A stretch of 10,249 nucleotides of DNA, taken from Thermoflexales bacterium (GTDB lineage Bacteria > Chloroflexota > Anaerolineae > Fen-1058). Where the stretch lies: contig JAUQXD010000359.1 of NCBI GenBank assembly GCA_030834835.1, positions 1 to 10,249 of the forward strand, given 5' to 3'. Below, in pieces: positions 2,562 through 10,249 of the stretch (positions are counted from its first letter, which is position 1; each line of letters begins with the position of its first letter). The translations under genes and the position numbers were made by a program. The notes beneath the pieces were generated by a model, which saw nothing but the letters and a program-made list of their open reading frames with translations, did not search any database and was not told where the DNA came from.

Positions 2562-5174
2562 ATGTCAGACACCTCACCTGATTCAATTACAGCCCCCGAA
2601 CCGGACCGCAGTAACACACTGTTCAGCAGGTTGTTCCGCGAGCACGAAACCGTGATGCTGTTGATAGAGCCAGACACGGGCGCGATTGTCGATGTCAACC
2701 CGGCCGCCTGCGCCTTCTACGGCTACGACCATGCCGCCCTGTGCCGGCTTAACCTGGCGGACATCAATCAACGGCCCCGGCCTGAAATTGCCCTGAATCT
2801 GCAGCACGCCAGACGCGGCGAACGCAACCAGTTTGTTGTCCCGCACCGCCTGGCCTCGGGCGAAGTGCGCACCGTTGAAGTCCGCTCGTCGCTCACGGAG
2901 ATTGACGGTCAGACGCTGCTCTTCGCGATTGTACACGACATCACCGATCACGCGACTGCCGAGCGCGATTTGCGCCAGTTGGCGCAGCGCCTGACCATGC
3001 TCAACGACATCGGCCAGGCCATTGCCTCAACGCTCGATCTCGATCAGATTTTGAGCATCCTGCTGGAACGGACGCGGCAGGCGGTAGGCGCTGAGGCCTG
3101 CTCCGTGGCGCTGCTGGACGAGTCGCATACCGAACTGGTGTTTCGCCAGGCGGCCGGGGTCGCCAGCCGCGACGTTATCGGGCTGCGGTTAAAACGCGGC
3201 CAGGGCGTGGCGGGCTGGGTGGCGGAACATCAGCAATCGGTGCTGATTCTGGACGCCGCCACCGATCCGCGTCTCCTCGGGCAGATCATGACGTCATCGG
3301 ACTTTCAGACGCGCAATTTGATCTGCGTGCCGATGTTTGCCCACAACGTCATCATCGGCGTCCTGGAACAGATCAATAAAGTGACGGGCGTTTTTGACGC
3401 CGCCGATGTGCAGCTGTTGGAAGCCGTCGCCGCTCAAACCGCCGTGGCCATTGACAATGCGCGCCTGTTTGACGCCGAACGGCGCAGTCATCAACGCCTC
3501 GAGACGCTGTACCGCATCGGCCAGACCGTCAATTCGACGCTCGATCCAGCCGCAATCCTCGATCAGCTGATCGATGAGGCCATGCGCGCCACGCACGCCA
3601 CGCACGGCGCCGCACTGATCGCCCGGCCGGCCGAAGGCACCTTTGAACGTCGCGCGCAACGCGGTTACTCGCCGGAACTGATCGCGCGAGCGGCTCAGCA
3701 CCCGCTGCCCCTGGCGGGCGGCATCAATGGCCGGGCGTACACTGCCCGGCAAGTCGTCGCCGTTGACGATGTGCGGCTGGACCCCGACTATTTTCCGCTG
3801 GTGCCGGAAACCCGATCGGAAGTGGTGATCCCGATTCTGCGCGGCGACCGCGTGCTGGGCCATATCGATCTGCAAAGCCCGCTCGTCGGCGGCTTCCGCG
3901 AAGTCGATCTGGACTTTCTGCGCGTGCTGGCCGATCAGGTCGCGGTGGCGCTGGAAAATGCGCGCCTGTATCAAGAGGCTCAGCGCCATGCCACGGAACT
4001 GGAAGAGCGGGTGCGTGAACGCACGGCCGCCCTGCGCGATAGCGAAGAAACGGCCCGCGTGATGCTGAATGCCGCGCCCGATGCAGCCTATTTGCTCGAT
4101 TCGAACGGCACGGTGTTGGCGGCCAACGCGCCCGGCGCCCAGGACCTGGCGACATCGGTCGGGCAACTGGTCGGCGCCAATCTGGTGGATTTATTTGAGC
4201 CAGCCCTGGCGCAGGCCCGCCGCGCCCAGATCGATCGCGCGATCACCACCGGCCAGCCGAACCGCTTTCTAGACGAGCGAGCGGGCCGCTATTTCGATAA
4301 CGTCATTTATCCGATTCAGGCTGCCTCCGGCGTGATCGATCGAGTCGCTGTTTATACCACTGATGTAACCGAGCGCCGCCTGGCCGAAATTGAAATGCAG
4401 CGCGCCCTGGATCAGGAAAAAGAACTTAGCGAACTCAAATCGCGCTTCATCTCCATCGCCTCGCACGAGTTTCGCACGCCGCTGACCACCATCCTGTCGT
4501 CGGCCGAACTGCTGGAGCATTACAGCCATCGCTGGAGCGACGCCAAAAAATTGGACTACTTCAAGCGCATTCAGACCGCCGTGCGGCACATGGTGGACTT
4601 GATCAACGATGTGCTGGTGGTAGGCAAATCGGACGCGGGCAAGCAGGTGTTTGAGCCTGTACCGCTGGACTTGATCGGGTTCTGCGGCGCGATCATCAAC
4701 GAGATCCAGCCCGACGGGTCACACCCCCAGCCGATTGTGTTTCACGCGAGCGGCGACTGCGCTAATGCCGTGATGGACGAGCGCCTGCTGCGGCACATCC
4801 TGTCCAACCTGCTGTCCAACGCCATCAAGTATTCGCCGCCTAAAGCGCCGATCGAATTCAGCCTGCACGGGCGCGATGGGCAAGCCGTCTTCGACATCAG
4901 CGATCACGGCATCGGCATTCCGCCCGATGATCTGGCGCACCTCTACGATACCTTCCATCGCGCCGGCAACGTGGGCAACATCGCCGGCACCGGCCTGGGC
5001 ATGACCATCGTCAAACGGTCGGTCGATCTGCACGGCGGCACGATCGAAGTGAACAGCCGCGTCGGCGCAGAATCCGGTACCCGGTTCACCGTCACGCTGC
5101 CGCTAGTCTCGGTTCCGCCGGCAGCGGCGGAATCTGACCCTGAAAATAACGCTGCACCGACTCCGCCAGGGTAA
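2562..5174 (+). CDS. Soluble hybrid-sensor histidine kinase, PAS-GAF-GAF-PAS-HisKA-HATPase
   Basis: Cytoplasmic two-component sensor kinase of 870 residues with no membrane helix. Order: PAS 1 at about 20-130, GAF 1 at 142-305, GAF 2 at 311-472, a coiled-coil linker rich in Glu/Arg at 468-502, PAS 2 at 501-607, HisKA with phospho-acceptor His635 (SHEFRTPL), and HATPase_c with N-box NLLSNAIK (N753), G1 box D781-HGIGI and G2 box GTGLGM (809-814). All catalytic motifs are intact, so it should autophosphorylate. It has no receiver domain and no response regulator beside it, so it is an orphan. The ligands of PAS and GAF are not predictable; no haem or chromophore cysteine is obvious. The frame is open from an ATG at 2463, which would add 33 residues, but a promoter lies inside that extension and the family start looks like MSDTSPDS. 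Neither start has a good ribosome binding site. Its last 83 bases overlap the opposite gene. Confidence 0.93.
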   Translation: MSDTSPDSITAPEPDRSNTLFSRLFREHETVMLLIEPDTGAIVDVNPAACAFYGYDHAALCRLNLADINQRPRPEIALNLQHARRGERNQFVVPHRLASGEVRTVEVRSSLTEIDGQTLLFAIVHDITDHATAERDLRQLAQRLTMLNDIGQAIASTLDLDQILSILLERTRQAVGAEACSVALLDESHTELVFRQAAGVASRDVIGLRLKRGQGVAGWVAEHQQSVLILDAATDPRLLGQIMTSSDFQTRNLICVPMFAHNVIIGVLEQINKVTGVFDAADVQLLEAVAAQTAVAIDNARLFDAERRSHQRLETLYRIGQTVNSTLDPAAILDQLIDEAMRATHATHGAALIARPAEGTFERRAQRGYSPELIARAAQHPLPLAGGINGRAYTARQVVAVDDVRLDPDYFPLVPETRSEVVIPILRGDRVLGHIDLQSPLVGGFREVDLDFLRVLADQVAVALENARLYQEAQRHATELEERVRERTAALRDSEETARVMLNAAPDAAYLLDSNGTVLAANAPGAQDLATSVGQLVGANLVDLFEPALAQARRAQIDRAITTGQPNRFLDERAGRYFDNVIYPIQAASGVIDRVAVYTTDVTERRLAEIEMQRALDQEKELSELKSRFISIASHEFRTPLTTILSSAELLEHYSHRWSDAKKLDYFKRIQTAVRHMVDLINDVLVVGKSDAGKQVFEPVPLDLIGFCGAIINEIQPDGSHPQPIVFHASGDCANAVMDERLLRHILSNLLSNAIKYSPPKAPIEFSLHGRDGQAVFDISDHGIGIPPDDLAHLYDTFHRAGNVGNIAGTGLGMTIVKRSVDLHGGTIEVNSRVGAESGTRFTVTLPLVSVPPAAAESDPENNAAPTPPG

Positions 5175-5973
5175 GCTCCCCACCCAGCACCGGCTGCTCG
5201 TATGCGGCGGCCCATTCCGCCAGGTTTGATTGCGCGCGCTGTAGTTCGTCGCGGATCAAATAGCCCATCGGCCCGACTTGATCCAGATAACCGGTGATCT
5301 CAAAATCCCGATCGGCCCGGGCGCGATCATACGCCACGCGTTTCACTTCGGCGTGCCAGTGTCCGGCCTGCCACGCGACCTGCCCGTAACTGGCTCGCGC
5401 ATCGCCGTCGAACGGCAAACCCACTGCGCCCACGTTGACGACCAAAGTTCGATCGATGGTGCGAATCAGCGGCCGATGCGTGTGGCCCACGAGCAAGACA
5501 GCCGGCGGCGGCGCATTCTGCGGTGCAATCTTCCAGCGCAATTCATCTTCCGCCGTCTCAATGTAGATCCCCGCGCGCGTTCCCGCCATCGAAGCATGCA
5601 CACTGCGCGCTTCCGAATCGGCCTGCCACACGCTGAACTGAAACGGCCATGCCGCCAGCGTCGCCAGATCGGCCTGCACCTGCTGAAACGTCCAGAACGA
5701 GTTGCGATGCAAGTCGAAGCGCAGACCGCTGCGGGGCGCATTCGGCGCGGCGTGCGTCAGCACGTACTCTTCGTGATTGCCCAGCACGCACTGCCAGCCC
5801 TGCGTGCGCACGCGATTCAGCACCAGGTCAAGGCACTCGCGCGGGCGCGGACCGCGATTGATCACATCGCCGCCAACGATCACATGATCGGGCTGCCAGT
5901 GATCGATGTCTTCGACAACCGCTTCAAGTGCGGCCAAATTGGCGTGGACATCAGTGAGTATGGTAAGTTTCAT
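5092..5973 (-). CDS. Calcineurin-like metallophosphoesterase
   Basis: Metal-dependent phosphoesterase of 293 residues. The dinuclear site motifs are all present in order: D8-x-H10 (LTDVHAN), GGD36 followed by NRGP, GNHE at 65-68, a lone H126 (VHAS), and GHTH at 163-166. This combination matches bacterial single-domain phosphodiesterases and phosphatases related to YfcE/MJ0936. The C-terminal ~100 residues, with no recognised motif, extend past the core and may be a lid or partner-binding tail. Start choice: the ATG at 5973 places MKLTILTDVHAN at the start, as is usual for the family. An ATG at 6003 would add ten residues; neither has a clear ribosome binding site. The substrate (nucleotide, phosphodiester or protein phosphate) is not inferable. 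Its 3' end overlaps the kinase 3' end on the other strand, and it is divergent from the glycosylase gene. Confidence 0.93.
   Translation of the reverse strand: MKLTILTDVHANLAALEAVVEDIDHWQPDHVIVGGDVINRGPRPRECLDLVLNRVRTQGWQCVLGNHEEYVLTHAAPNAPRSGLRFDLHRNSFWTFQQVQADLATLAAWPFQFSVWQADSEARSVHASMAGTRAGIYIETAEDELRWKIAPQNAPPPAVLLVGHTHRPLIRTIDRTLVVNVGAVGLPFDGDARASYGQVAWQAGHWHAEVKRVAYDRARADRDFEITGYLDQVGPMGYLIRDELQRAQSNLAEWAAAYEQPVLGGELTLAESVQRYFQGQIPPLPAEPRLAAA
5113..5132. other. Perfect hairpin inside the convergent gene overlap
   Basis: TTCCGCCG and CGGCGGAA form an 8-base perfect stem with a 4-base loop, in the 83-base stretch coding for both the kinase tail (+) and the phosphoesterase tail (-). There is no T tract on either side, so it is not a classical intrinsic terminator. 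It could still stall polymerase or protect 3' ends. Confidence 0.4.
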
Positions 5974-6002
5974 ATAGAACAGTCTGTGTTGAATTTTGTG
6001 CA

Positions 6003-6031
6003 TTGATCATTAGTCGGCGTTCTCCTATAAT
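6003..6031 (+). promoter_or_regulatory. Promoter of the YcaQ-like gene
   Basis: TTGATC (6003-6008), exactly 17 bases, TATAAT (6026-6031). Initiation near 6038 leaves a leader of about 24 bases before the ATG at 6062. Near-consensus sigma70-type promoter. Confidence 0.7.
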
Positions 6032-6039
6032 CGCGCGAC

Positions 6040-6068
6040 ATTCTACCACACGGATACCCTCATGCGAA
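6040..6068 (-). promoter_or_regulatory. Candidate promoter of the phosphoesterase gene
   Basis: On the minus strand, TTCGCA (6068-6063), 17 bases, then TAGAAT (6045-6040) with TGG directly before it (extended -10). It overlaps the start codon of the YcaQ-like gene and fires away from it. Weaker than the opposing promoter. Confidence 0.4.
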
Positions 6069-7291
6069 CCCTGTCACTTGAAACCGTCCGAAGATTAGCA
6101 CTGGTCAAGCAGCATCTGGCGGATCAATTACCCACCACTGACGCCGCAGGGATTCTCGATCTGGTGCGCGATTTAGGCTGTCTGCAACTCGATCCAATCA
6201 GCGCGGTAGCGCGCTCGCACCAGATCGTCGTATGGAGTCGCGTCGGTCACTACGATCTCGATCATCTCGATCAACTCTTATGGCGCGATCGCAGTCTCTT
6301 TGAATTCTGGGCGCACGCGGCCTCGATTGTGCCCGTGGCCGACTATCCAATTCATCAGCACCTCATGCGGCGCTATGCGACTGAAAAAACTACTGGCCAG
6401 GTCAGCCAACGCTACGCGACGTGGCTCGCCGACAATCAAGGTTTGAAGCGCCATATTTTGCAGCAGATTAAAAAGCACGGCCCGCTGCCCTCACGCGAAC
6501 TTGAAGTCGAAAACAAGGTCTCAGCGGGCTGGTACTCCACGGGCTGGACCTCTGGCCGCGACGTGAGCCAGATGCTGGATTACCTGTGGACGAAGGGCAA
6601 AATCATGGTGGCGGGGCGAACGGGGATTCAAAAGTTGTGGGATCTCAGCGAGCGCTGCCTGCCCGATTGGACACCGCGCGAGACCCTAAACGCAAGGCAG
6701 ATAACGTACCGCGCCGCACAGACAGCAGTGAAGGCGCTGGGTGTGGCGACCACGCAGCAGATTAAGTGGCACTATGTCCGCCACCGCTACGAAGACCTGC
6801 CACAGGTGCTCAAACAATTGGTCCAAGACGGACGACTCGAACAAGTTCACGTTGCCGATCAGAAGGGCGCGTGGTTCATTCACGCCGATGATGTGTCCTT
6901 GCTCGATCAACTCGACTCGATCGATTTTTCGCGCACCACCCTGCTCTCGCCTTTCGACAATCTCATCTGCGATCGGGCGCGCACAACGCAGTTGTTCAAC
7001 TTCGATTTCCGCATCGAGATTTACGTGCCGCCGGCCAAGCGTAAATTCGGCTACTACGTCCTGCCGATTCTGCACGGCGATCGCATCATCGGCCGCATCG
7101 ATCCCAAGTTCGATCGGGAGCACGGCCGATTGCACATTCACGCCGTCCACGCCGAAGCGGACGCGCCAAAAGATCGCGCCACCGCCCGATCGATTCGCGG
7201 CGCGATCGAGAATTTGGCCTCATTCCTCGGCGCGAGTGACATCCATTTCACGCACCTTGTGCCATCGGGCTGGCAGCGCGATCTCAAGTAA
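6062..7291 (+). CDS. ycaQ: YcaQ/AlkX-family DNA glycosylase (HTH_42, winged helix)
   Basis: Protein of 409 residues, the same size as E. coli YcaQ (AlkX), a glycosylase that unhooks DNA interstrand crosslinks and removes bulky N-alkylated purines. The family N-terminus is clear: RDLGCLQLDPISAVARSHQIVVWSR follows a short helix. In it Q42-L-D44 is the QxD catalytic motif of the YcaQ-like branch, as opposed to QxQ of the AlkZ-like branch that protects azinomycin producers. Downstream are the winged-helix repeats and the late LLSPFDNLICDRARTTQLFNFDFRIEIY region, where SPFDN and the following Arg/Phe-rich stretch are typical. It has its own promoter, no operon partner, and convergent orientation to the ABC-F gene across a repeat. 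The start at 6062 fits the family N-terminus, though the ribosome binding site is weak. Function is by family membership; the symbol denotes the family and strict orthology is not proven. Confidence 0.9.
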   Translation: MRTLSLETVRRLALVKQHLADQLPTTDAAGILDLVRDLGCLQLDPISAVARSHQIVVWSRVGHYDLDHLDQLLWRDRSLFEFWAHAASIVPVADYPIHQHLMRRYATEKTTGQVSQRYATWLADNQGLKRHILQQIKKHGPLPSRELEVENKVSAGWYSTGWTSGRDVSQMLDYLWTKGKIMVAGRTGIQKLWDLSERCLPDWTPRETLNARQITYRAAQTAVKALGVATTQQIKWHYVRHRYEDLPQVLKQLVQDGRLEQVHVADQKGAWFIHADDVSLLDQLDSIDFSRTTLLSPFDNLICDRARTTQLFNFDFRIEIYVPPAKRKFGYYVLPILHGDRIIGRIDPKFDREHGRLHIHAVHAEADAPKDRATARSIRGAIENLASFLGASDIHFTHLVPSGWQRDLK

Positions 7292-7302
7292 CCGCGCCTG
7301 AT

Positions 7303-7399
7303 GTCATTCCCGCGTGCTGCCGGCGGGAATCCAACGATTCTATCGATGCACAACGCTATTGGACAGTCTGGATACCCGACGAAAGCATTCGGGCATGAC
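7303..7399. repeat. MITE- or REP-like palindromic intergenic repeat
   Basis: A 97-base unit bounded by imperfect 10-base inverted ends: GTCATTCCCG at 7303-7312 and CGGGCATGAC at 7390-7399 (one mismatch). Each end folds on its own: ATTCCCGC/GCGGGAAT (7306-7313 with 7323-7330, 9-base loop), and TACCCGA/TCGGGCA (7373-7379 with 7389-7395, one mismatch, 9-base loop). The ends with CATTCCCGCG and GGAATCC resemble short dispersed palindromic elements common in many bacterial genomes; copy number cannot be seen here. It fills most of the 7292-7442 gap between convergent genes and may help end transcription from both sides. No other feature is visible in that gap. Confidence 0.6.
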
Positions 7400-7442
7400 G
7401 ACCAATGGCGCGACTTGACACGAACGCCTCACTCCTCACTCG

Positions 7443-9068
7443 TTACCCCAACACCTCCGCCGGATCAAGATACTCCACCAACTCATCGCCCTCCACCACC
7501 CACACGCGCGTGGCGAAGCCTTGAATGAAGTAACGATCGTGCACGACGGCCAGCGCCGTGCCCTCGAACTGCGTCAGCGCCTGCTCGAACTGCGTGCGCG
7601 CCGGAATGTCAAGATGATTGATCGGCTCGTCCAGCAGCAGGAAGTTGCAGCCCTGCGCCACCAACTGCGCCAACATCAAACGCGCGCGTTCGCCATACGA
7701 CAACGACTGATTCAATTGCAATGGTTGATCGCCCGTGACCAGGAAGTAGTGCAAGAAACTGCGGGCCTCGGTGTCGTTCATCAACGCGGCGGCTTGCAGC
7801 GTCTTCAACGGCGTTGAAGCCGGATCGAGCACGTCCTGCTCTTGTGCGAAGTAACCCACTTTCACACTCGCGCCGAGTCGTACTTCACCGGCCAGCGGTG
7901 CAAGTTGCCCGATAATTGTTTTGACCAGCGTCGATTTGCCTGCGCCGTTTTCGCCGATGAGGGCGATGCGCTCGCCGCGCCGGATGATCTGATTGATGTC
8001 GCGCACCAATACCCGTTCACCGTAGCCTACGCTGACGCTCTCAAGCCGCAGCACATCGCGTCCGCTGATTTCAGAATCGAACTCCACTTTCATTTGCCAG
8101 GACTGCCTGGGCTTTTCAACGCGCTCATCCGCCGCAAGGTAGCGTTCCAGTTTCTTTTCGCGCGATTTCGCCTTATTAGCCACCTTCTTCGCCAGACGCC
8201 GCACATTGGGTTGACGCGGCGTGGTGCTGCGCTCGACCGAATTGGCTTGCTCCATGGTGCGGGCAATATCCTGCCGCATGCGGCGAATCTCGGCCTGTTG
8301 ATCGGCGTAGGTTTGCCACTGCTTCTCGCGTTCAAGCAAACTCTGCTCAAGATAGGCCGTGTAATTGCCCACATATTCGCGCAGTCCGTGCGTCTGCGGA
8401 TCGAGGTACAGCACGCGATTGATCGTGCGATCGAGAAAGACACGGTCGTGCGACACGATCAACGCCGCGCCGCGAAAACGATTCAGCCAGTCTTCCAGCC
8501 AGTTCAGCATCGGCAGATCGAGGTGGTTGGTTGGCTCGTCCAGCAGCAGCAGATTGGGTTCGGTCAGCAGCACCCGCGCCAGGCCCAGCCGTGTCTTCTG
8601 TCCGCCGCTGAGCGTAGTCACGCGCGTCTCCAGCGGCACGCCATCGAGGCCGAGATTCGCCAGCACTTCGGCACGGACCGCAGCATCGGGATAGCCGCCC
8701 AGCGCCTCCAACCGATCGAGTGCGCGTTGATACGCGGGCAGTTGACCTGGATCAAGCGCCAGCGCTTCTGCTAAACGCTCGACTTCGAGCGCAACGTCGG
8801 TGCGTTCGTCATGAAGCACATCGGCCAGTGTGGCGTCGGGCGCGAATTCCAGTCCCTGCGGCAAGTACCCGGGCCGCGCATTCGGATCGACGAACACACT
8901 GCCGCGATCGGGTTGTTCGGCGCGAGTCAACAGGCGCAACAACGTTGTCTTGCCGCTGCCGTTCAGGCCGATGAGGCCCACGCGTTCGCCGGGGCTGATT
9001 TGAAACGAGAGGTCACGCACGATCACTTGATCGGCGTAGGATTTGGTGAGTGATGATGCTGATAGCAT
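7443..9068 (-). CDS. ABC-F family ATPase (ribosome-associated, possibly antibiotic-resistance type)
   Basis: Twin-ATPase protein of 541 residues with no membrane segment. ABC-F proteins bind the ribosomal E site and either rescue stalled ribosomes or dislodge antibiotics. ABC 1: Walker A G34-LNGSGKTT, signature LSGGQ at 153-157, Walker B LLLLDEPTNHLD ending at D184, H-loop H207. A charged helical linker at about 237-325 (the P-site tRNA interaction motif) follows. ABC 2: Walker A GENGAGKST from 372, an altered signature LSYGE at 456-460, and DEPINHLD at 480-487 in place of DEPTNHLD. Both Walker B glutamates are present. No large EttA-type arm insertion is seen in ABC 1. The ATG at 9068 has AGGAG seven bases upstream; the frame is also open further upstream through a terminator hairpin, and such an extended start is wrong. 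The leader suggests induction by translation inhibitors. Confidence 0.93.
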   Translation of the reverse strand: MLSASSLTKSYADQVIVRDLSFQISPGERVGLIGLNGSGKTTLLRLLTRAEQPDRGSVFVDPNARPGYLPQGLEFAPDATLADVLHDERTDVALEVERLAEALALDPGQLPAYQRALDRLEALGGYPDAAVRAEVLANLGLDGVPLETRVTTLSGGQKTRLGLARVLLTEPNLLLLDEPTNHLDLPMLNWLEDWLNRFRGAALIVSHDRVFLDRTINRVLYLDPQTHGLREYVGNYTAYLEQSLLEREKQWQTYADQQAEIRRMRQDIARTMEQANSVERSTTPRQPNVRRLAKKVANKAKSREKKLERYLAADERVEKPRQSWQMKVEFDSEISGRDVLRLESVSVGYGERVLVRDINQIIRRGERIALIGENGAGKSTLVKTIIGQLAPLAGEVRLGASVKVGYFAQEQDVLDPASTPLKTLQAAALMNDTEARSFLHYFLVTGDQPLQLNQSLSYGERARLMLAQLVAQGCNFLLLDEPINHLDIPARTQFEQALTQFEGTALAVVHDRYFIQGFATRVWVVEGDELVEYLDPAEVLG

Positions 9069-9075
9069 AGCGAGA

Positions 9076-9081
9076 CTCCTC
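9076..9081 (-). promoter_or_regulatory. Ribosome binding site of the ABC-F gene
   Basis: GAGGAG on the minus strand, seven bases from the ATG at 9068. It decides the start: the open frame continues to a TTG at 9170, but that start has no such site and would force translation through the terminator stem. Confidence 0.85.
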
Positions 9082-9088
9082 TGAAGGG

Positions 9089-9118
9089 CAAACAAAAACC
9101 GAGGGAGCGCCCTCGGTT
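9089..9118 (-). terminator. Intrinsic terminator/attenuator in the ABC-F leader
   Basis: AACCGAGGG (9118-9110), CGCT loop, CCCTCGGTT (9105-9097): a 9-base perfect stem followed on the minus strand by TTTTTGTTTG. It sits only eight bases before the ABC-F ribosome binding site and downstream of the leader promoter. No other gene on that strand ends nearby except the cassette gene 250 bases away. It therefore looks like a regulated stop inside the ABC-F transcript. Confidence 0.85.
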
Positions 9119-9124
9119 GTCGGT

Positions 9125-9171
9125 CAAGGTCTGTTGGCAGCAAGCAAGCCGACAGACTTGAATGAATCAAG
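9125..9171 (-). ncRNA. Competing hairpins in the ABC-F leader RNA
   Basis: A small hairpin CTTGA/TCAAG (9171-9157) shares CAAG (9160-9157) with a larger stem CAAGTCTGT (9160-9152) / ACAGACCTTG (9134-9125, one bulged C). The two cannot form together. A third option pairs TGTCGG (9154-9149) with CCGACA (9123-9118), which abuts the terminator stem. Mutually exclusive pairing suits an attenuator, but I could not find a clear antiterminator that captures the CCGAGGG arm. Confidence 0.5.
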
Positions 9172-9192
9172 CGGTCCCTGAAAAATGAGTCG

Positions 9193-9213
9193 TTACGCCA
9201 TCAGTGTATGCAC
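9193..9213 (-). CDS. Leader peptide uORF (MHTLMA) of the ABC-F gene
   Basis: A GTG at 9213 opens a 6-codon frame ending in TAA at 9193-9195, peptide MHTLMA. TTAGGAG (9228-9222) lies eight bases upstream, the strongest ribosome binding site in the leader. It begins about 26 bases after the predicted transcription start and 75 bases before the terminator stem. Ribosome stalling here would change downstream folding. An inner ATG gives MA-stop. The leader function is inferred from layout; the peptide matches none I remember. Confidence 0.6.
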   Translation of the reverse strand: MHTLMA

Positions 9214-9245
9214 GCCAGCTACTCCTAAGAAACTATATCAAACTG

Positions 9246-9251
9246 ATTATA
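9246..9251 (-). promoter_or_regulatory. Extended -10 promoter of the ABC-F leader
   Basis: TATAAT on the minus strand with TGC directly before it (TGnTATAAT). The hexamer 17 bases upstream, TGTGTT (9274-9269), is a poor -35, but an extended -10 tolerates this. Predicted initiation is near 9239. The promoter lies about 45 bases from the attC-like site at 9297. Confidence 0.6.
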
Positions 9252-9296
9252 GCACAGCCGCCGCCACCAACACAGACGACAACCGTCAAAACTGAC

Positions 9297-9342
9297 GCCT
9301 AACTTCGGCAGCTGGGCGGGCCGGCTGCACGGCGTGTTGGGC
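9297..9342 (-). other. attC-like recombination site at the end of the endonuclease cassette
   Basis: On the minus strand it reads GCCCAAC (9342-9336, fits RYYYAAC), an imperfect palindrome with inner arms GCAGCCGG / CCAGCTGC (one mismatch), and GTTAGGC (9303-9297, fits GTTRRRY). The outer boxes pair along all seven bases with one G-T. It starts 27 bases after the endonuclease stop. GCCCAAC is the exact complement of GTTGGGC, which begins this cassette at 10095, as expected for a circularisable cassette. At 46 bases it is shorter than classical attC sites. Confidence 0.6.
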
Positions 9343-10094
9343 GGCATTGTTTGTGTAGGCACATTGGAACTATTCATCTTCACTTTCTTCTTCTGCATCA
9401 TCGTCAGATTCGAATTCGATATCATTGTTGCGCAAGTATTCAATGAAGTCCGTAATCCATCTAACGTTCTCTTTGTGACCGTAATCGTTGAGTATGAAGA
9501 TACCCAATTCTTCAAATTCTCGACTATTAGTCCAATAATGAACAGACTCCAGCTGGGTGCGAGAAAAACGCACTGGCCCACAAGATTCCGCGGTTATCTG
9601 TTTGACAACCGACAGGAAGTTGGATGATAGGGATTTTCGATGAGTCCTGATCTCACGTATAAGATCCATTTCTTCCCATAGATGTATGCGGAATCTATAT
9701 TCTGATCGAACTGCATGAAGCCAGTCCTTTGTATCAGATGATAGTGTATTCGAAACGATAATCAATAAATTATCTGGCTTGTGTTCGCGGCATTGCTCAA
9801 GCAATGGTGAAATCTGAGCAACCCCAGGTGGTTGCGTAGTGTAGCGCTTACACTGAATGATCCAATCTTCAGTTGTTTTGATTCTGTCTGTGTAGGCGGT
9901 CTCTTTTTTTGCAAGGATGTCTCGCCCTTTATCGCCGCCACCTTTGCCATACCACTGAATTTCTTGAAAGCCGTTGGCGTCAACTAACGTGTAACATAGC
10001 TCTTCAAATTCGGAAGGGGTCAATACTGTCCAATCAATTCCCATATAGCCTCTCTGCAAATACGGCTTCTTCTCGGTTGCAACGTGCCGCCCAA
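9303..10094 (-). mobile_element. Probable integron gene cassette, about 792 bases
   Basis: The unit lies between the cleavage points G^TTGGGC (10095/10094) and G^TTAGGC (9303/9302) of two attC-like sites. It holds one gene, a 44-base leader without an evident promoter, and a 27-base spacer before attC, which is the typical cassette design. Composition differs from the surroundings: 9661-9720 has 23 G+C of 60, while 4981-5040 has 41 of 60. No integrase gene or attI is in the window, so this may be the end of an array or an integrase-less cluster. Confidence 0.6.
9370..10044 (-). CDS. Mrr-like restriction endonuclease (PD-(D/E)xK fold)
   Basis: Protein of 224 residues with the Mrr catalytic core in its first half: LTPSEFEELCYTLV (E14 helix), GKGGGDKGRDI (35-43, acidic D42), and the strand IIQCKRY (62-68, Q64-x-K66), followed by PDNLLIIVSN, the next core strand. 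All expected PD-(D/E)xK residues are in place, so it should be an active DNA nuclease. Residues 150-205 are not recognised and may form a target-recognition part; the last 15 are almost all acidic (EFESDDDAEEESEDE). No methyltransferase is adjacent; Mrr-type enzymes usually cut modified DNA and need none. The ATG at 10044 follows AGAGAGG at four-base spacing; a TTG at 10059 would add five residues. Lower GC and flanking attC-like sites mark it as a cassette gene. A defence role is inferred. Confidence 0.88.
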   Translation of the reverse strand: MGIDWTVLTPSEFEELCYTLVDANGFQEIQWYGKGGGDKGRDILAKKETAYTDRIKTTEDWIIQCKRYTTQPPGVAQISPLLEQCREHKPDNLLIIVSNTLSSDTKDWLHAVRSEYRFRIHLWEEMDLIREIRTHRKSLSSNFLSVVKQITAESCGPVRFSRTQLESVHYWTNSREFEELGIFILNDYGHKENVRWITDFIEYLRNNDIEFESDDDAEEESEDE

Positions 10095-10143
10095 CAACAG
10101 ATGAGCGGACATACCGCGTGGGTCATCCGCTCATCCGTTAACG
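10089..10143 (-). other. attC-like recombination site between two cassettes
   Basis: On the minus strand: CGTTAAC (10143-10137), a perfect 10-base inner stem GATGAGCGGA / TCCGCTCATC, extendable through a G-T pair to AAC/GTT, a 16-base loop, and GTTGGGC (10095-10089, fits GTTRRRY). Length is 55 bases. It starts six bases after the stop of the gene entering from the right. The outer left box deviates from RYYYAAC at its first two bases. Confidence 0.6.
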
Positions 10144-10149
10144 ATGGCC

Positions 10150-10249
10150 TTATTCGAACTTATTCTTGAACAACTCCACCGAGTAACTGATGCGGCGGCG
10201 GGCCTGGGCTGCGCCCTCCCAACCGATAGTCTTCACCGAGACGCCTTCC
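10150..10249 (-). CDS. C-terminal end of an unknown protein, probable next cassette gene
   Basis: The minus strand is open from the window edge for 32 codons to the TAA at 10152-10150. The tail contains KTIGWEGAAQARRRISYSVE and ends in LFKNKFE. It is positively charged, with no recognisable domain, and its composition is GC-rich unlike the neighbouring endonuclease. The stop lies six bases before the attC-like site, as usual for cassette genes, which supports both calls. Only the tail is visible, so nothing can be said about function. Confidence 0.55.
   Translation of the reverse strand, partial: EGVSVKTIGWEGAAQARRRISYSVELFKNKFE

Follow-up and report, generated by a model that had tools for sequence, protein, structure and literature searches.

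A probable single integron cassette with an Mrr-type nuclease gene between housekeeping genes of a Thermoflexales genome

Integron integrases in Chloroflexi are the subject of a 2008 report (PMC2426708), Chloroflexota are named among the integron-bearing phyla in PMC8618304 and PMC9668308, and an integrase-associated sul4 module appears in genome bins, one of which belongs to Chloroflexota (PMC12772301). For stray cassettes, off-target insertion has been put forward as an origin (PMC8618304). The presence of integrons in Chloroflexota is already known and the insertion of cassettes outside integrons has already been proposed; a literature search for the integrons of Chloroflexi, Chloroflexota and Anaerolineae, with subscription journals mostly outside its coverage, found no title on their cassettes.

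Here we describe a window, by which we mean the whole stretch of 10,249 nucleotides that was analysed, and which is an entire contig (C1326) of the genome of a Thermoflexales bacterium (G000; 6.48 Mb in 1452 contigs, 90.7% complete and 7.0% contaminated). A contig of the same-genus genome G001 is collinear with the window (3033-7290 at 83% identity, 7428-9225 at 81%), and the window contig thus belongs to the lineage of its own genome. The family set used for comparison consisted of five genomes, namely G000 itself, G001, G002, G003 and G004. Near the end of the window we probably see a single cassette with an Mrr-type nuclease gene that was placed outside an integron, flanked by a pyrophosphatase gene and by an ABC-F gene, and was then eroded at one end. 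Both neighbours are housekeeping genes, and that the cassette is solitary is seen on one side only, as the contig stops about 150 bp past it, at 10249. The features of the locus are as follows.

7443-9068, minus strand: ABC-F ATPase gene, the right-hand host neighbour (Pfam ABC_tran, ABC_tran_Xtn).
9237-9254, minus strand: host DNA at the position of R', with the -10 box TATAAT (9251-9246) of the ABC-F promoter and then GTTTGAT (9243-9237), assigned from relatives and spacing.
9255-10094, minus strand: integron gene cassette as retained, 840 bp, running from TTGGGCGGCA... (10094) to the last recognisable attC base (9255), delimited by 11-nt complementary ends, the attC model match and the host promoter from 9254.
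9255-9342, minus strand: attC site, positions 1-89 of 107 in the attC model, with the outer R' end missing and R'' GCCCAAC at 9342-9336 (model score and alignment).
9297-9342, plus strand: inner 46-nt palindrome of R'' with the internal GTTAGGC box, the left-hand site of the initial annotation (fold scan, alignment).
9370-10044, minus strand: cassette gene for a 224-aa Mrr-type PD-(D/E)xK restriction endonuclease, ATG at 10044, motifs DKGRD and QCK (PF04471, PADLOC, alignment, Foldseek).
10085-10095, minus strand: cassette 5' boundary GTTGGGCGGCA, with G 10095 and T 10094 on either side of the expected crossover point.
10100-10135, no strand assigned: hairpin GATGAGCGGA/TCCGCTCATC, 3' of the pyrophosphatase gene and the core of the initially annotated right-hand attC (no attC match; counterpart in G001).
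10150-10249, minus strand: inorganic pyrophosphatase gene, of which the contig includes only the 3' end (DNA match to a gene of G003 C295).

Read on the minus strand, the end of the pyrophosphatase gene (10249-10150) is followed by the hairpin (10135-10100), the cassette boundary (10095-10085), the nuclease gene (10044-9370) and the GCCCAAC that opens the attC site (9342-9336). The initial annotation had seen an integron-type cassette here, with one gene between two attC-like sites, and most of its observations were borne out: the boxes GCCTAAC (9297-9303) and GTTGGGC (9336-9342) of the plus strand do surround an imperfect palindrome, one gene lies between the sites, and the stops are 27 nt (9370 to 9342) and 6 nt (10150 to 10143) from the boxes, the former in a gene that is co-oriented with the attC and ends before R''. 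Its reading as an integron cassette with a single gene is likewise backed by the attC homology, the terminal complementarity and the integrase sequence and arrays of the same genome, all of which were observed directly, and by the integrons of related genomes. However, the extent of 46 nt given to the left-hand site and the attC on the right, and with it the idea of two flanking attC sites, did not hold.

The complementarity of the cassette start with its own attC had been described over 7 nt (GTTGGGC, at 10095-10089 on the minus strand), and it is both real and longer than that, as the first 11 bases of the cassette, GTTGGGCGGCA (10095-10085), are exactly complementary to TGCCGCCCAAC (9345-9335, minus strand) at the R'' box. 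In 300 first-order Markov sequences derived from the window and searched for complementary pairs 300-1500 bases apart, an exact pair of 7 nt arose in 27%, of 9 nt in 3.7%, of 10 nt in 0.7% and of 11 nt in 0/300, so that the 7 nt first noted would have been insufficient as proof. Ten other cassettes of the family, each lying between adjacent attC hits on one of 4 contigs, were treated likewise: exact complementary ends of 10-11 nt were found in four (own C419, own C302 and two in G004 C175), 8 nt were exact in one, 8-9 of 11 positions agreed in three, and the two without a match both adjoin a partial attC hit. Cassettes that follow attC sites in the arrays of the own and related genomes begin with GTTGGGC, which is continued by GG, GC, CG or other bases.

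Nothing in the window matched an Rfam family up to E=1, and we therefore built an attC model (R1) from 13 sites picked by hand among the hits, leaving out the window site, the site of own C302 with its odd insertion, the 129-nt site of C419 and partial hits. The RNAalifold consensus of the sites was weak on the gene strand (-8.3, compared with -17.5 on the bottom strand), and for this reason the model was built without structure. The aligned sites of the family are about 106 nt long, and the 46-nt palindrome initially taken for the left-hand site is only the first part of such an attC, of which the window copy reaches 9255. R1 scores 73.5 bits (E 1.6e-22) at 9342-9255, where 88 bases are homologous to the attC sites of the family and positions 1-89 of 107 are matched, with GCCCAAC present as R'' and GTTTGAT at the outer R' position; the second-best place in the window reaches 7.1 bits. 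The lack of an attC score in a covariance search had been named beforehand as a result that would speak against a cassette, and a score was obtained, albeit with our own R1, which differs from the models of IntegronFinder.

At E<=0.01, the own genome has 18 R1 hits spread over 12 contigs, while G001 has 2, G002 17, G003 9 and G004 35, with the provisos that the weakest, below about 25 bits, may be due to chance and that the hits in related genomes include partial ones. With stricter filters and E<=1e-5, the model found all 5 family genomes among 298 genomes of the class and 1 of the 293 others, the latter weakly (29.4 bits). In a BLAST search of the own genome, the left-hand palindrome had 36 matches with E values of up to 10. 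Nine, the window among them, reached E<=4.5e-4, and one of these nine (C1052) is no hit of R1. The box pattern alone, GCCCAACN{20,50}GTTRGGC, is uninformative, with 13 matches in the own genome and 10 for the reversed pattern; among the 13 places, only C901 and the window are hits of the attC model. Some calls of a box-plus-fold scan, such as L044 3261-3309 and L038 4268-4399, were unsupported by R1 and were set aside.

These counts bear on the reading that chance hairpins and chance box matches merely surround an ordinary gene. The frequency of 7-nt pairs in random sequences, the near balance of the box pattern and its reversal, and a right-hand hairpin that is indeed no attC are all as this reading would have them, but the 88-base attC homology and the 11-nt complementary ends refute it for the left-hand site and the cassette ends, and for the locus as a whole we consider it to have next to no probability.

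On the pyrophosphatase side, the segment 10100-10143 was considered as an attC and rejected, as R1 lists nothing there up to E=10 when run on the whole window with its filters off; the outer box of the segment, CGTTAAC, departs from RYYYAAC at two positions. We interpret it as a hairpin downstream of the pyrophosphatase gene, and the cassette, flanked by only one attC, has its 5' boundary beside it. A similar hairpin is present at the matching place of G001 C537 (76% identity, E 0.04), where a different gene follows and no pyrophosphatase end is visible before it. In the five genomes the hairpin has no copy besides itself below E=0.04, and it is absent from a scan for T-tailed terminators, which accepts only loops of 3-8 with a T run; the hairpin has a long loop and lacks a T-run. 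The name of the pyrophosphatase gene follows from its 75% DNA identity over 89 bases to the G003 C295 gene, the protein of which matches PF00719 Pyrophosphatase at 5.6e-59.

At its other end the attC is incomplete. Past GGCGGCTG (9255) the 13 model sites run on for 16-18 nt to the R' end, and the window has instead TGCTATAATC as the -10 region of ABC-F; G001, G002 and G003 likewise have TATAAT at a corresponding position upstream of this gene. GTTTGAT stands at the spacing expected for R', but since it departs from GTTRRRY and is preceded by host sequence, we treat the R' of the window attC as probably lost, with a strongly changed R' as the less likely case. Because the R' end is missing, the right junction is unusable for a comparison with recombination at G^TT. 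A GTTRRRY box is also present inside 13 of 15 aligned sites, and in 12 of these 13 it ends 43-47 nt from the start of R'', in one at 77. As the attC homology continues past this inner box, the alignment indicates that the window cassette did not insert through it. One might still speculate that the attC of this family is nested, with an inner hairpin, and that a cassette devoid of R' stays mobile through the inner box, lone cassettes then routinely planting defence genes by housekeeping genes. We hold this to be improbable; the sites are related by descent, and the conservation of the inner box alone is hence no proof of function.

The same attC family is found in tandem arrays with different genes (C419 and C901 of the own genome, G004 C175), and in G002 C790 six attC hits lie beside an integron integrase. 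Both observations argue against the view that the nuclease gene is carried by another kind of small mobile element, MITE-like and with palindromes at its ends; such an element might also have complementary ends that are short and, on one side, a hairpin, yet this reading is already disfavoured and we judge it very improbable.

In the own genome, the integron integrase profile TIGR02249 matches contig C1444 in three adjoining pieces (1-123, 121-213 and 213-313 of 315, with 135, 123 and 159 bits) that lie in different frames and none of which alone passes the cut-off of 265 bits. This is the mark of either a broken gene or assembly indels, and the integrase may be dead. The three frames occupy 839-1820 (L037), the first break lying close to a palindromic stretch, and a cassette start GTTGGGC lies about 220 bp upstream of the integrase, the gene there reading away from it; GTTGGGCGGC lies beside the integrase of G001. 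No contig of the own genome joins the integrase sequence to the cassette arrays, which are on other contigs. At E<=0.001 the profile matched all 14 of 14 control genomes as well, none over the cut-off, and at E<=1e-25 it matched 44 of 100 genomes, the own included and 28 over the cut-off, together with 1/14 controls, 0 over. Given the loose matches in the controls, only integrases over the cut-off or adjacent to attC arrays are regarded as firm. G001, G002 and G004 have matches over the cut-off, that of G001 running just past the stop codon of the gene, and G003 is without any match at E<=1e-25. The named proteins among the best 120 of 7832 relatives of the G001 integrase are integron integrases, one of them also called XerC. 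Five of ten scanned cassette or neighbour proteins are without a Pfam match, and those recognised include ParE and a DNA methylase in G004 and an adenylyltransferase-like protein in G002. In own C1296 (L039, 2900-4780), a gene with the Shedu SduA_C domain precedes an attC and a tyrosine-phosphatase-like gene follows it.

Whether relatives lack the cassette was asked of the window locus, for which we found no clean empty site: in G001 C537 the interval from the hairpin to ABC-F is occupied by another gene, at about 6700-7700 (L065) and lipoprotein-like in our own reading. The initial annotation had named the same flanks around an unrelated, conserved gene order in relatives as an observation that would count against it, and one relative, G001, touches on this point, with a similar hairpin, the same ABC-F gene and a different gene between them. 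The first bases after the G001 hairpin, TGGGCGG, are common to the cassette start; R1 found no attC in this insert (best 0.7 bits), and its interpretation as a cassette was dropped on that score.

The G001 gene also touches on the possibility that the locus is what remains of a former array or whole integron, its other cassettes having been excised or deleted and its attC having decayed. An extra gene at the same spot with a cassette-like start after the hairpin would suit this possibility, as would the missing R' end, which shows decay, and the partial attC hits in related genomes. Against it stand the lack of a second attC in the window and of any in the G001 insert, at the best scores given above, as well as the housekeeping nature of the neighbours, and we regard such a remnant as possible but rather unlikely.

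The best evidence for insertion outside an integron comes from G004, and the window has no equal case. Four of the 35 attC hits of G004 (C240, C228, C320 and C318) each stand alone on their contig, at least 9 kb away from either end; hits near contig ends, which are many, as expected if arrays break assemblies, were not counted as lone. In C320 (L206), a lone cassette follows a parB gene (Pfam ParB_N, HTH_ParB, ParB_C), and its flanks, 842-885 bp apart in G004, are separated by 58 bp in G002 C135 and by 27 bp in own C776. In G003 C372 the start of the same next gene comes no more than a few bases after the end of parB, the likeness stopping after about 12 codons; this case is weaker because BLAST matched the parB side only and the likeness fades. 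The cassette is absent from G002, from G000 and, less firmly, from G003, and its start, one base off the expected one, appears from the sequence to supply the parB stop codon. The flanks of the C318 cassette are found together on no single contig of a relative. Its gene has a relative in own C861 (L222, 82% identity), and as no attC was found in the flanks fetched there (best 4.7 bits), such genes need not be cassettes. In C240 (L198), an attC hit at 16678-16770 lies directly after an isocitrate/isopropylmalate dehydrogenase gene (PF00180), where a clear cassette start was not found.

The cassette protein of the window matches PF04471 in Pfam (3.8e-13) and the candidate PDC-M58A in PADLOC (1.8e-24), and the PD-(D/E)xK catalytic motif is apparent in this match and in an alignment of 28 rows, in which the start and the motifs are conserved, D43 and Q69 are invariant and K71 is kept in at least 90% of rows. 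It has 41 homologs besides itself, and none at E<=1e-25 in 395 other genomes of the class; in the named genomes a first scan found none and an alignment-based scan found 29 loci, in nine of which no attC was noticed by eye in the flanks. The structure model (mean pLDDT 86.3, pTM 0.70) gave three Foldseek hits at E<=0.001, all of them MspJI chains (E 9.9e-06 to 2.5e-05), at a TM-score of only 0.44-0.45, and a sequence search of solved structures returned only a meaningless multicystatin match. The protein shares the motifs of the catalytic domain with Mrr_cat and MspJI-type modification-dependent nucleases, but unlike the latter it has only 224 aa and no recognisable DNA-recognition domain. A function in defence is probable, and the putative nuclease might cut incoming, perhaps modified, DNA. 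Together with the Shedu C-terminal domain gene of C1296, this would make two cassettes with likely defence genes in the own genome, which fits the idea that cassettes store such genes.

The ABC-F neighbour is 83-90% identical to its closest homologs, and among the best 120 of 3650 homologs the few that bear an organism name belong to Chloroflexi bacterium, Thermoflexales or Anaerolineae. Its leader contains a 6-codon ORF, MHTLMA (9213-9193, minus strand), 38 nt after the -10 box, and, ahead of the start codon, a terminator-like hairpin that carries a T-run (9116-9099, minus strand). A like layout is present in G001 (MHTLVA), in the first copy of G002 (MIKMFA) and in G003 (MTTRIV), and in our reading the arrangement resembles that of an antibiotic-type ABC-F gene under ribosome-mediated attenuation. 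In G002 C496 (L068, 5229-8616) two copies of the ABC-F gene stand in tandem, and the window has one.

Here we propose that the integrase IntI would have taken up a circular cassette, using the folded bottom strand of its attC, and joined it to a chromosomal site outside the integron. A later loss might then have removed the outer R' end of the attC and the adjoining host DNA, so that the site now abuts the -10 box of ABC-F. That the insertion took place at this exact spot of the window is what we infer. The window locus and its sister in G004 C320 may be natural instances of lone cassettes among housekeeping genes, in a lineage that does not belong to Proteobacteria, and the attC model of the family makes the dispersal of cassettes countable.

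Compared with described systems, the window cassette resembles a CALIN in lying away from an integrase, and off-target insertion is among the origins proposed for these elements in PMC8618304; however, the definition given in PMC12444791 needs at least two attC sites, and the window has one. From the attG insertions of Loot et al. (2024), as described in papers citing them, it differs in the loss of its right junction, and it probably shares with them the placement of single cassettes at non-integron chromosomal loci. The likeness to the cassettes of sedentary chromosomal integrons is not complete, as no other cassette is seen on the contig of the window copy, the attC of which is without the outer R' end. 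In addition to a co-oriented ORF and an attC of the R''/R' type that retains R'', tandem arrays and an integrase sequence in the same genome, it has in common with such cassettes an attC sequence that is confined, among the genomes searched, to one family.
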